Source: Candidatus Nyctobacter psychrophilus
GTDB taxonomy: Bacteria > Vulcanimicrobiota > Vulcanimicrobiia > Vulcanimicrobiales > Vulcanimicrobiaceae
DNA length: 64,000 nt
Reading direction: 5' to 3'
NCBI GenBank assembly: GCA_014305025.1
Contig: JACRTY010000021.1
Coordinates: forward strand, 1 to 64,000
Both the position numbers and the translations under genes were made by a program. This document shows positions 6,661-10,412 of the stretch, one piece after another; the stretch's first letter is position 1, and every line of letters starts with the position of its first letter. A model generated the notes under the pieces. That model ran no database searches. It saw nothing but the letters and a program-made list of their open reading frames with translations, and was not told the origin of the DNA.

Positions 6661-7248
6661 TCAGGGTTTGTGCTCGTTGAGTCGCCGGGGCCCGCTCAGT
6701 ACCAGACTCGCCGCATCGAAGAAGCGCAGCGGACGGGCGGCCTCGCGCGTGAGCCCGATGCGGACGCTGGTTCCGATTGCTTCCGGCGGTCGACCGGCGG
6801 CGAGCCACAACGGACCTCGCGCACACAGGTCGAGAGCATCGTGCCAACGAGTCACGCCGAGCGCGCGCGCCAACCGTCCGGGACCCGAACAAAGCAGCCG
6901 ACCGTCATGGCAGGCGCGCCGCGCTTCCATCAGTTCCACGCCGGCCAGCGGTTCAGCCGCGCGCAGGAGGACGGCCGCACCGACACCGGGTGTCTCGCTC
7001 GAGACGTTGAGGCAGTACGACCGCCCGTAGATCACATAGACGTAGGCGTGTCCGCGGCGCAAGAACATCGAGCGATTCCGCGCGGTCTCGCCCCGAAACG
7101 CATGAGACGCGGCATCCCCCGGCACGTACGCCTCGGTTTCAACGATGCGCACCACGGCCCGGCCGCCGGCGCCGTCGGCGACGAGCAGCGTACCCAGTAG
7201 GAAGCGGGCGAGCGCGCCGGTTTCAAACGGTAACTCGGCCCGTCGCAG
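6661..7248 (-). CDS. mpg: 3-methyladenine DNA glycosylase (AAG/MPG family), non-ATG start
   Basis: Base-excision repair enzyme that removes alkylated purines. The catalytic motif RIVETEAYVPG, the downstream SHAFRGETARNRSMF, the YVYVIYG strand and the C-terminal RIGLTREA are all typical. The first canonical start (GTG, 7155) would begin at the catalytic motif and remove the N-terminal helix. In-frame sequence upstream encodes a normal family N-terminus (LPFETGALARFLLGTLLV) without ATG, GTG or TTG until a stop at 7372-7374. I therefore take the CTG at 7248 as the likely start, giving about 195 residues. It lies 43 bp after the RNase H-like gene, both behind a promoter with an SOS box. Confidence 0.85.
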   Translation of the reverse strand: MRRAELPFETGALARFLLGTLLVADGAGGRAVVRIVETEAYVPGDAASHAFRGETARNRSMFLRRGHAYVYVIYGRSYCLNVSSETPGVGAAVLLRAAEPLAGVELMEARRACHDGRLLCSGPGRLARALGVTRWHDALDLCARGPLWLAAGRPPEAIGTSVRIGLTREAARPLRFFDAASLVLSGPRRLNEHKP

Positions 7249-7291: not shown

Positions 7292-7720
7292 TTACGCTGC
7301 GATGTCGAGCGAAACTTCCGCGCGTGCCCGCGCTTCGAGATCGCGGCAGCCGCGTTGGTCGCGCGCGAGCGCTACCTGCGCCGCGGTGAAGCGGTTGAGT
7401 AGACAGCGCAAGGTCACGTACGGCACGGTCAGCGGCGGCGGCACGTTGCGTCTGCCGTCCAAGTCGGCGACCATGTCCGCATCGGTGGTCGTCAACGTGA
7501 CGCGCCGAACTCCGCGTTCATACAGGCGCATGGCGACCGTCCGCATGGCCGCATAGGTGACGTCTCGTCCGTGTAAGGCCCCGAGCGGCCGGCACGCAAA
7601 GGTCACGCGCACCAACGTTTCGCGCTGCTGGGCGCGCACGAGCGCATAGGCCACGCCGGTCGCGTGCGCGTCGGCCGCACATCCCACGGCGACGTCCACC
7701 ACTTCCTCGCGCATCTCCAT
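7292..7720 (-). CDS. RNase H-fold-like protein, unknown function, SOS-controlled
   Basis: I do not recognise a named family. The ATG at 7720 follows a strong AAGGGAG; a longer frame runs into the promoter and is unlikely. The 142 residues show alternating strands and helices like an RNase HI fold: two N-terminal strands with a G-A-Y pattern, a helix (VTYAAMRTVAMRLYERG), a strand (VRRVTLTTTDADMVADLDG) and a C-terminal helix (DLEARARAEV). The canonical DEDD residues are only partly matched, so any nuclease activity is doubtful. It is the first gene after a promoter whose spacer contains a perfect LexA-type palindrome and precedes a DNA glycosylase gene, which suggests a role in the DNA damage response. 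Confidence 0.6.
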   Translation of the reverse strand: MEMREEVVDVAVGCAADAHATGVAYALVRAQQRETLVRVTFACRPLGALHGRDVTYAAMRTVAMRLYERGVRRVTLTTTDADMVADLDGRRNVPPPLTVPYVTLRCLLNRFTAAQVALARDQRGCRDLEARARAEVSLDIAA

Positions 7721-7738
7721 CGGCTCCCTTCTTCCCCG

Positions 7739-7768
7739 ATCATATACCGAACGTACGTTCGATGTCAA
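7739..7768 (-). promoter_or_regulatory. Sigma-70 promoter with embedded LexA-type SOS box
   Basis: On the minus strand the sequence reads TTGACA (7768-7763), an 18-bp spacer, then TATGAT (7744-7739). Inside the spacer is CGAACGTACGTTCG (7748-7761), a perfect 14-bp palindrome that matches CGAAC-RNRY-GTTCG, the SOS operator known from Bacillus and mycobacterial LexA. A repressor bound there would block both promoter boxes. The -35 box overlaps the stop codon of the upstream glycosyltransferase gene. The predicted start of transcription is about 12 nt before the AAGGGAG-preceded ATG at 7720. Confidence 0.85.
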
Positions 7769-8931
7769 ACCGGTTGCGGCCGAGCGGCGCGCGGACGACG
7801 GGGGGCGTGGAGACTCGGTCGTTCGATGAGGTTTGCGTACAGCTCCATGATGCCGCCGGCGCAGTGGCGCGCGTCGTAGTCCCACGCCCGGGCCCGGGCG
7901 GCGGCATCGGAACCCGGCTGAGCCGCCAGACGGCGGTCGAGCGCCACCGCAAGCGCCTCGGCATTGCCGTCGGCAAGCGTGCCTGCGCCGGCGAGCACCT
8001 CGCGCGTCTGCGGCGTGTCGGCGGCGACCACGCCGGCGCCCGCCGCCAGCGCTTCGATAAGGACCAAACCTTGCGTCTCGCTGCCGCTGGTAAACAGGAA
8101 CACGTCGGCGGAGGCGTACGCATCGGGCAGCCTGTCGCGCGCGAACTCGCGCGCGAACGTCGTGCGCGCTGCAATGCCCATGCGCTGCGCCGTTCGTTCG
8201 AGCGCTCGACGGTGCGTCCCATCACCGACGACGACCAACCGAACGTCGGCCGCCGTAACGCGCGCAAACGCTTGCAGCGCCAATTCGACGTTTTTTTCGC
8301 GGCCGAGTCGGCCGACGGCGAGGATCATGCGCTCCCGCGGCCCGATGCCCAGGCGCGCCCGCAACGCGTCGCTACGCCGCCCGCGTGCAAAGGCCGCAAC
8401 GTCGATGCCGCTGGGGGCCACGGCGATCGGGCGCTGCACCCCGATCGCCCGCAACTGCTCTTCCATGGCGCGCGTCGGAACGACGACGGCATCGGCCGCA
8501 TTGGCGTAATTGCGCGTAAGCAGCGTCGCGGCGGCGCGCGTTAGATTGCTTTCGAAGGGAATGTAATGAGCGTACGCCTCGAGTTGCGTGTGATACGTGA
8601 ATACGAGCGGAACGTTGCGGCGACGCGCGTAAGCAGCGGCGAGCATACCGGTAACGAACGGTGAATGCGCGTGCGCGATTGAGAGCGGTCGTGCGATGGG
8701 CGGAAGGTATGGTAGGGTAAGCCGATATGCGGTACGCGTCGGAAGGGGCAGCGACGGCACCCGAACGACGCCGGCCGCCGCATCGTCGAAGCGCGGCATG
8801 CGCGGCGCGACGATCGTCACTTCGTGACCGTGCGCACACAATGTCTGCGCAAGCGCATCCACCGACGCAACGATTCCATTTTGAATCGGTCGGTAACATT
8901 CGGTGAACAAGCCGACGCGCCAAACGCTCAC
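7765..8931 (-). CDS. Glycosyltransferase family 4
   Basis: GT-B fold, retaining sugar transferase using an NDP-sugar. The N-terminus WRVGLFTECYRPIQNGIVAS is the classic glycine-rich start of this group. The donor-binding domain has ILAVGRLGREKNV and FTSGSETQGLVLIEALAAG, the E-x7-E region. With the GTG at 8931 the protein has 388 residues. The closest functional types are diacylglycerol glucosyl- or mannosyltransferases and phosphatidylinositol mannosyltransferase-like enzymes, so a role in envelope glycolipid or polysaccharide synthesis is likely, but the acceptor is unknown. The -35 box of the next transcription unit overlaps its stop codon. Confidence 0.85.
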   Translation of the reverse strand: MSVWRVGLFTECYRPIQNGIVASVDALAQTLCAHGHEVTIVAPRMPRFDDAAAGVVRVPSLPLPTRTAYRLTLPYLPPIARPLSIAHAHSPFVTGMLAAAYARRRNVPLVFTYHTQLEAYAHYIPFESNLTRAAATLLTRNYANAADAVVVPTRAMEEQLRAIGVQRPIAVAPSGIDVAAFARGRRSDALRARLGIGPRERMILAVGRLGREKNVELALQAFARVTAADVRLVVVGDGTHRRALERTAQRMGIAARTTFAREFARDRLPDAYASADVFLFTSGSETQGLVLIEALAAGAGVVAADTPQTREVLAGAGTLADGNAEALAVALDRRLAAQPGSDAAARARAWDYDARHCAGGIMELYANLIERPSLHAPRRPRAARPQPV

Positions 8932-8991
8932 GCCACAACGTACTCGACAACGCAAACCAACGCCTACAAAGGTCGTACGATATTCTACTAT

Positions 8992-9027
8992 ACCGGATTG
9001 TGATTTAAGACCGGATCGTGATTTAGG
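8992..9027. repeat. Tandem 18-bp direct repeat
   Basis: Two head-to-tail copies (8992-9009 and 9010-9027) share ACCGGAT.GTGATTTA.G with two mismatches. They sit in the intergenic region between a minus-strand glycosyltransferase and a plus-strand cell-wall protein, and the second copy runs into the left arm of a long inverted repeat. The arrangement is suitable for cooperative binding of a regulator. No protein can be named. Confidence 0.7.
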
Positions 9028-9129
9028 TGGCTCTGATTGTGTTCGTGGCTAGGAGCCTAGCGGCGAAGTGGCCCTGGGGCCATGAGCCGCGTAGCGACGA
9101 CGCCACGGACACAATCAGAGCCACCTAAA
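9022..9129. repeat. 28-bp inverted repeat enclosing nested hairpins
   Basis: The left arm is 9022-9049 and the right arm 9102-9129; they are complementary over 28 bp with one position forming a G-U pair in RNA. The 52-bp interior contains two smaller hairpins (CTAGG/CCTAG at 9049-9060 and TGGCCC/GGGCCA at 9069-9082). Immediately after the right arm comes the promoter of the next gene. It could be a strong terminator or structured RNA, or a small non-autonomous mobile element (MITE-like); no clear target-site duplication is visible. Confidence 0.75.
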
Positions 9130-9133
9130 CGAT

Positions 9134-9162
9134 TTGACGGGGACGGCGGGCTGTGCTATGGT
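9134..9162 (+). promoter_or_regulatory. Sigma-70 promoter of the 3D-domain gene
   Basis: TTGACG at 9134-9139, a 17-bp spacer and TATGGT at 9157-9162 form a near-consensus promoter. Transcription would start near 9169, leaving a leader of about 150 nt before the coding region. The promoter begins only 5 bp after the long inverted repeat. Confidence 0.65.
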
Positions 9163-9168
9163 GGCCCG

Positions 9169-9320
9169 GTTCCCGAGTCCGGGGTGTCCGGATTCCTGTG
9201 GTAGCCCTTCTTCGGAAGCGTCAGCCGCTACTTTGCAAACTTGCGCCTCGTGGTGCAGAGTTTACCGCTGTGACGGTGACCTCGCATCGCGGCGTGCCGC
9301 ACGTCCAGAAAGGAGCCGTG
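9169..9320 (+). promoter_or_regulatory. Structured 5' leader of the 3D-domain gene (candidate riboswitch)
   Basis: About 150 nt of GC-rich, pairing-prone sequence separates the predicted transcription start from the coding region and ends in AAAGGAG. Genes for 3D/Rpf-like cell-wall enzymes in Gram-positive bacteria often carry a c-di-AMP (ydaO-yuaA) riboswitch. Some pieces here appear in a similar order (GGGGTG, TAGCCC, GCGTCAGCCGCTAC), but the match is too loose to call. No other gene or element is seen between 8932 and 9320 beyond the repeats and promoter listed separately. Confidence 0.35.
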
Positions 9321-10412
9321 TTGATCGTCAAGGATCAAACCGCCGCACTCATAGCGGCCAGCGCCCTGGCACTCGGTCTCGCCTTCGGTCCTTGCGCGGC
9401 CGGCGCAGCGACGGAACATGCCTCAACTCCTGCGGCTGCCGAACCTGCTCAGCCTTCACTCGCCGGGACCTCCGCGCAAAGTGCCGCGACGCAGCCATCG
9501 ACGCTGAGCGTCGTATTCGTCGAGGCCGGTACCGAGACCGCGTACCCGACGTCGGCCCGCACGGTCGCACAGTTCCTCGCCGAACGTGGCGTCGTGGTGG
9601 GCGGCAACGATTTTGTTTCGGACCGAACCGACGCGACGCTCGAGGACGGCATGCGCCTGGAGTATCGCCGCGCCGTACCAGTTGAATTATTCGTCGGCAA
9701 GCACAAGGCGCTGCTGCATTCGTCCGCCGCAACCGTCGCCGATTTCCTGGCACAGCAGCATGTGAAGCTGGCTGCGAATTCCGACGTACGGCCCGGTCTT
9801 CAGTCGCCCCTGACCGCCGGTCAGATCGTGCAGATCGTACGCAACAGAACGTGGACGGCGCACGTTCGCTCCCGCATCACGCCGCGCGTCACGCAGCGCT
9901 TCGACAAAAACTTGCCCCGCGGCATGAGTCGCATTCTCGCTCAAGGCAGTCCCGGCTTTCGCGAAACGACGATCCGCTACTGGGCGTCCGACAATGGTGA
10001 GCGAACGCGTACGGTGCTCGCCTCGCGCATCATTCGCGGACCGCGCCCACGCATCGTCATTCGCGGCATCGCCGACTATGCTTCGCTCGCGCGCGTCGCG
10101 GTCGCCGGATTCGCGAGCGTGCTTCACTTTGCCGGGACCGCCTTGCACGCCATCGCGACCGGCTACACGGCGGGCTGCGCGGGTTGCAGCGGGGTGACCG
10201 CCAGCGGCTATCGCGCCGGCTTCGGCATCATCGCCGTCGACCCGAATATCATTCCGCTGGGAACGCATCTCTTCGTGCCGGGTTACGGCCGCGCCATCGC
10301 CGGCGATACGGGCGGTGCCATCCATGGGAACCGCGTCGACCTGGGCTTCGACACGCTGGCCGACGCGATGCGCTTCGGCCGCCGCCCCGTCACCGTCTAT
10401 CTCGTAAAATAA
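9321..10412 (+). CDS. Secreted cell-wall protein: DUF348-G5-3D domains
   Basis: Exported protein of the YabE/RpfB-like class, probably a peptidoglycan-acting enzyme. A signal or anchor segment (about residues 7-35) is followed by two DUF348-type repeats, a G5-like region and a C-terminal 3D domain. The 3D domain has its three aspartates in FGIIAVDPNIIPLGTHLFVP, IAGDTGG and RVDLGFD and resembles MltA-type lytic transglycosylases. I choose TTG 9321 because AAAGGAG lies 5 nt before it; GTG 9318 is possible. The frame is open back to 9153, but that part is leader. It is followed after 20 bp by ksgA, an order also seen as yabE-ksgA in Bacillus. Confidence 0.85.
   Translation: MIVKDQTAALIAASALALGLAFGPCAAGAATEHASTPAAAEPAQPSLAGTSAQSAATQPSTLSVVFVEAGTETAYPTSARTVAQFLAERGVVVGGNDFVSDRTDATLEDGMRLEYRRAVPVELFVGKHKALLHSSAATVADFLAQQHVKLAANSDVRPGLQSPLTAGQIVQIVRNRTWTAHVRSRITPRVTQRFDKNLPRGMSRILAQGSPGFRETTIRYWASDNGERTRTVLASRIIRGPRPRIVIRGIADYASLARVAVAGFASVLHFAGTALHAIATGYTAGCAGCSGVTASGYRAGFGIIAVDPNIIPLGTHLFVPGYGRAIAGDTGGAIHGNRVDLGFDTLADAMRFGRRPVTVYLVK

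Follow-up and report, generated by a model that had tools for sequence, protein, structure and literature searches.

A conserved LexA-type box in the promoter of an RNase H-like gene suggests a class-wide SOS target in Eremiobacteria

The locus and its promoter

The locus lies in a window of 64,000 nucleotides (the whole stretch of DNA that was analysed) from a genome of 3.22 Mb in 58 contigs that belongs to Ca. Eremiobacterota, a little-studied soil phylum. It holds a glycosyltransferase gene, a promoter, a small gene that we call gene 1 and the glycosylase gene mpg (Table 1). Read directly from the window, the minus strand from 7768 to 7739 has the form TTGACA-N18-TATGAT, and the glycosyltransferase gene upstream ends within its -35 hexamer, which contains the TGA stop. 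The palindrome CGAACGTACGTTCG is exact and falls within the 18-nt spacer (7762-7745), hence between the -35 and -10 elements, and it occupies the same place in the aligned loci. Judged by this position, the box is placed so that it could block the promoter.

The mpg frame follows directly after gene 1. Its Pur_DNA_glyco domain scores 186 bits (cut-off 27), in agreement with the DNA alkylation glycosylase that the initial annotation had placed downstream of the box. Between 6661 and 7374 no ATG, GTG or TTG stands in frame before the domain, which leaves a CTG at 7248 as the sole candidate; it appears that either the start codon of mpg is a rare one or a frame error occurred in the assembly. From the spacing of the two genes we infer that mpg is co-transcribed with gene 1. 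A search of Rfam over positions 7600-9500 gave no match. This region includes an intergenic inverted repeat at 9022-9129 (28-nt arms, 96% complementary, 52 nt apart), likewise without Rfam match.

Table 1. Features of the locus in window coordinates
Feature	Position	Strand	Remarks
mpg, methylpurine-DNA glycosylase	6661..7248	-	PF02245, E 4.2e-55; start uncertain
gene 1, 142 aa, predicted RNase H1 fold, active site probably lost	7292..7720	-	start 7720 or 7714; putative class-wide SOS gene
-10 hexamer TATGAT	7739..7744	-	window sequence and aligned loci
LexA-type SOS box CGAACGTACGTTCG	7748..7761	.	in promoter spacer; exact in 102/103 testable homologous loci
-35 hexamer TTGACA	7763..7768	-	TTGAC here in 100/103 aligned loci
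glycosyltransferase gene (neighbour, outside the SOS unit)	7765..8934	-	PF13439, PF00534; upstream of gene 1 in 99/105 loci

Conservation of the box across the class

Taken alone, the palindrome proves nothing, because it is near chance frequency in both window and genome. For the motif CGAACN4GTTCG the expectation in the window is 0.29 sites, 23 of 100 shuffles contained it, and genome-wide the bare palindrome has 14 sites compared to 10 for a reversed control. We therefore rejected it as stand-alone evidence. When the -35 element was included in the pattern (TTGACN1-5CGAACN4GTTCG), four sites were found in the window's genome and none for the control. Across the class, 110 of 117 genomes have at least one such site, and the control gave two hits in all.

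Of the 117 genomes of the class Eremiobacteria, 104 gave a hit for gene 1. Among 149 genomes that represent the phylum Eremiobacterota, a profile search recovered it in 106, all of them within the class, and in none of the 32 genomes outside it. The 13 class genomes without a hit include four of the 70 good genomes. Gene 1 is therefore not indispensable. We read 106 stretches around gene 1, of which 105 had a scorable gene 1. Two of these (L035 and L121) end at a contig edge without upstream sequence, so that 103 loci were testable for the box. A second gene-1 copy in G111 (L126), cut by a contig end and missed by the HMM search, stands outside the 105; it has an exact box. The genome G048 carries two gene-1 loci (L115 and L118), both with an exact box.

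The initial annotation had described a LexA-type SOS box in the spacer of a near-consensus promoter, and conservation bears this description out: the exact CGAACN4GTTCG box was present in 102 of the 103 testable loci, and the remaining locus, in G104, differs by one mismatch. All 46 testable genera are covered. In the alignment nine of the ten fixed positions reach 2.0 bits and one reaches 1.92, compared to 0-0.4 bits at most of the flanking positions that lie beyond the -35 and -10 elements. The spacers of the aligned promoters measure 16-18 nt. A random sequence of 300 bases with 66% G+C would contain an exact box with a probability of 0.0004. According to Table 1 of PMC9578287, CGAACN4GTTCG is the LexA box of Bacillus subtilis and Staphylococcus aureus, and the proposed fit to the Gram-positive-type consensus holds. 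DNA-damage control of mpg and an unknown protein in a diderm with this type of box had been considered unusual; instead, this type of box is the norm for the class and not an oddity of the locus.

The mpg gene is adjacent downstream of gene 1 in 80 of the 105 loci, and at one more locus it stands at a distance of 1.2 kb; two loci (L108 and L115) were too short downstream for scoring. No mpg adjoins gene 1 in 23 loci whose downstream sequence suffices for scoring; 22 of them retain the exact box, and the other is without upstream sequence. The box stays where mpg is absent and therefore goes with gene 1, which makes mpg a frequent passenger of the gene-1 unit. It is thus the RNase H-like gene 1, and not mpg, that is conserved as the target. 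SOS control of uracil-DNA glycosylase in other phyla is reported in PMC8565304, and control of a glycosylase as such is therefore not new.

LexA and the predicted regulon

The window's genome encodes one full LexA with a self-cleaving S24 domain (TIGR00498, 220 bits; matches to PF01726 and PF00717). Its winged helix-turn-helix reads GYPPSVREIG..VGLSSSSTVQAHL..LEKQGFIRRDPTKPR, and the recognition helix is nearly identical across the class (GLSSSST...). Both the domain and its recognition helix are probably of the B. subtilis type. An alignment revealed that this LexA has kept the Ala-Gly cleavage site and the catalytic Ser and Lys known from E. coli LexA. A LexA was found in 106 of the 117 class genomes. 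The LexA control proposed in the initial annotation would need a LexA with a matching DNA-binding helix and the same box near lexA or recA. The former is probably present in the window's genome. The latter is seen as well, since lexA is preceded by CGAACGTACGTTTG and the ftsY-recA unit carries CGAACAGGGGTTCG. The lexA box has the form CGAACN4GTTTG in 30 of 30 loci examined (L198-L227), and its GTTTG ending is possibly due to overlap of the box with the -35 element there.

In the window's genome ftsY and recA lie together on contig 2 (L013, 2986-5059) with the SOS box before ftsY. In other genera the box was seen between ftsY and recA. An exact box in either position was found in 16 of 17 loci examined from the families f1 and f2 of the window's taxonomic order, that of the window's genome included, and the 17th has one mismatch. 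No recA box was present in the 14 loci examined from family f3, one of which offers only about 20 nt of upstream sequence; the regulon is therefore not uniform. We had considered recA as unregulated, given the few boxes within 300 nt of 30 recA loci, and rejected this after a scan across ftsY had revealed boxes at recA in the window's taxonomic order. Likewise, tRNA T-arms were discarded as a source of five box hits upstream of recA, since a search of these loci with ARAGORN gave no tRNA.

The genes imuA, imuB and dnaE2 of the window's genome each have an exact box behind TTGACT. We surveyed ten good genomes for boxes of the type CGAACRYRYGTTYG, leaving out the known lexA and gene-1 sites, and fetched 54 stretches, one of which is the gene-1 locus of G104. 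These genomes hold 3-9 boxes per strand compared to 0-3 control sites, and most of the sites that do not belong to a gene named here fall within reading frames and resemble background. A box precedes imuA in 8 of the 10 genomes. A gene for a DnaE-type polymerase, with DnaE1 and DnaE2 pooled, adjoins a box in 5 of 10, although for two of the five the box may fall within the frame.

Several minor sites were seen as well. Two genomes have a box before a gene for a class II (B12-dependent) ribonucleotide reductase (L322 in G104 and L290 in G017). In G104 a gene for an AlkB-like 2OG-Fe(II) oxygenase (PF13532) starts at an exact box (L323, box at 1012) and is a possible second alkylation-repair gene under LexA. 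The window's genome also encodes, on contig 46 (L008, 7504-8841), an ImuB-like protein with an IMS_C domain only, in which the N-terminal part of Y-family polymerases is apparently missing. In G071 two short frames (MKLA..., in L305 and L309) begin one base after a box near contig ends; the one scanned had no Pfam match, and both presumably resemble the start of an IS607-type resolvase.

We consider it very likely, on sequence grounds, that the gene-1 promoter is a LexA-repressed SOS promoter. That the palindrome is a chance match in an ordinary promoter, devoid of any regulatory role, would agree with the near-chance frequency of the bare motif in window and genome, but this is next to inconceivable given its exact retention in 102 of 103 homologous promoters between nearly random flanks and the presence of the same motif at lexA, recA and the imu genes. 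A regulator other than LexA could in principle use the palindrome at gene 1. However, the same box marks lexA, recA and imuA and equals the known operator of the same LexA type in Table 1 of PMC9578287, which renders this exceedingly improbable. It is also very unlikely that the switch serves alkylation repair through mpg with gene 1 as the passenger: the frequent adjacency of mpg and the boxed AlkB-like gene in one genome point in this direction, but the 22 exact boxes at loci lacking an adjacent mpg, out of 23 with one devoid of upstream sequence, do not.

If the gene-1 promoter is indeed repressed by LexA, the protein would occupy the palindrome between the -35 and -10 elements and exclude RNA polymerase. 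Upon DNA damage RecA would trigger self-cleavage of LexA, and the loss of LexA would turn on the unit, i.e., gene 1 and then mpg where it is adjacent. LexA binding and induction at this promoter are predicted from the sequence data, and gene 1 would be among the most constant targets of the class LexA.

Box and logic are already known from Gram-positive SOS systems (PMC9578287, Table 1). The LexA regulon of B. subtilis and S. aureus uses the same box, situated within promoters of DNA-damage genes, as in Eremiobacteria. In contrast to that regulon, the targets in the class include the imuA-imuB-dnaE2 set, the ftsY-recA unit and a new core gene, and the class lexA uses the variant box ending in GTTTG. 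A further difference is the Gram-negative staining of Eremiobacterota described in PMC9758169. That paper presents Vulcanimicrobium alpinum, the first cultured member, with a Gram-negative stain and a complete genome of 3.50 Mbp. Since a cultured member exists, the regulon is testable. Our search of the literature available to us for papers pairing LexA with Eremiobacterota, or LexA with WPS-2, found none. New here are the LexA regulon of the class, computed for a phylum for which we found none in print, and a core SOS gene with the fold of what is probably a dead RNase H. Under a LexA-type box in every scorable genus, gene 1 stands beside lexA, recA and the error-prone polymerases.

The gene 1 protein and its possible role

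No Pfam or NCBIfam model fits the gene-1 protein of the window. Among 102 relatives, the Pfam model RVT_3 matches five (best E 6.2e-5) and NCBIfam gave a single weak match (E 0.0095); a search of PHROGs with three family members returned nothing. The AlphaFold model reaches a pLDDT of 94.2, and its top match in Foldseek is an RNase H1 of Halobacterium (E 6.4e-7). VIA-align superposed the model on 4e19_B with a Z of 16.1 (129 residues, rmsd 2.4 A) and on 3hst_B with a Z of 14.3. According to the model, gene 1 has an RNase H1 fold, which it shares with RNase HI of the archaeal or RVT_3 type (PDB 4e19; N-domain of Rv2228c, 3hst). In contrast to these proteins, it lacks the catalytic and hybrid-gripping motifs, is 13-14% identical to them and has an invariant Tyr101 and Cys106 of its own (102 of 102 members).

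In order to locate the catalytic positions we used a profile comparison (hhalign) of gene 1 with 18 canonical RNase HI sequences from the same genomes. The catalytic Glu of helix A pairs with column 55, which is acidic in 1 of 102 members. The catalytic Asp of strand 1 falls on column 13 by our own placement outside the hhalign match; this column is likewise acidic in 1 of 102, and none of the columns 10-16 is more than 15% acidic. The catalytic Asp after strand 4 pairs with column 79, which is 36% acidic; D80, which is conserved, aligns with the Ser that comes next. As to the fourth acid, in the last helix, D127 and E135 are candidates, each about 85% acidic and outside the hhalign match. Neither the DGGSRGNPGPA nor the ATNN motif of canonical RNase HI occurs in the gene-1 family, and a separate canonical RNase HI was found in 60 of 61 genomes searched. 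Based on these alignments, gene 1 appears to have lost at least three of the four catalytic residues. Because these residues and the loops that grip the hybrid are missing, the protein is very probably not a nuclease and RNase H-like in shape only. The initial annotation had named the gene RNase H-like; this stands with respect to the predicted fold and fails with respect to the catalytic residues.

It is quite unlikely that gene 1 encodes an active nuclease with an active site rebuilt from D80, D86, D127 and E135. Acidic residues are indeed well kept at these positions (D80 in 102 of 102 members, D86 in 97%, D127 and E135 in about 85% each, the latter two outside the hhalign match). However, the strand-1 and helix-A acids are each absent in 101 of 102 members, and D80 aligns with the Ser that follows the catalytic Asp and may serve to cap a helix. 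We rejected the idea that a dead RNase H uses the usual face to compete for RNA:DNA hybrids, since the GNPGPA and TNN motifs are missing as well. Another possibility, which we regard as rather doubtful, is that gene 1 inhibits cell division in the SOS response of this lineage, as SulA, YneA and SidA do in others. Such inhibitors are lineage-specific SOS genes according to PMC9578287, and gene 1, a small gene, occurs in this class only, but its product is predicted to be a folded RNase H-type domain.

While the regulation of gene 1 is strongly supported, the role of its protein is a matter of inference. We tentatively suggest that it may serve damage tolerance as an accessory or adaptor protein without enzymatic activity. 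More speculatively, and with little confidence, the dead RNase H of this class-confined core SOS family could act at stalled forks together with ImuA, ImuB and DnaE2, either as a scaffold or as a checkpoint factor. According to PMC9578287, ImuA is related to RecA and ImuB is a dead Y-family polymerase, so the ImuA-ImuB-DnaE2 cassettes, which stand under the same boxes in the class, partly consist of non-catalytic enzyme relatives. Gene 1 differs from them in that it lies at a locus of its own and is related to RNase H. If our suggestion is true, gene 1 would add a further pseudo-enzyme to the SOS tolerance machinery of Eremiobacteria. An unnamed core gene of the predicted damage response, with an RNase H fold minus the active site, poses a specific puzzle.
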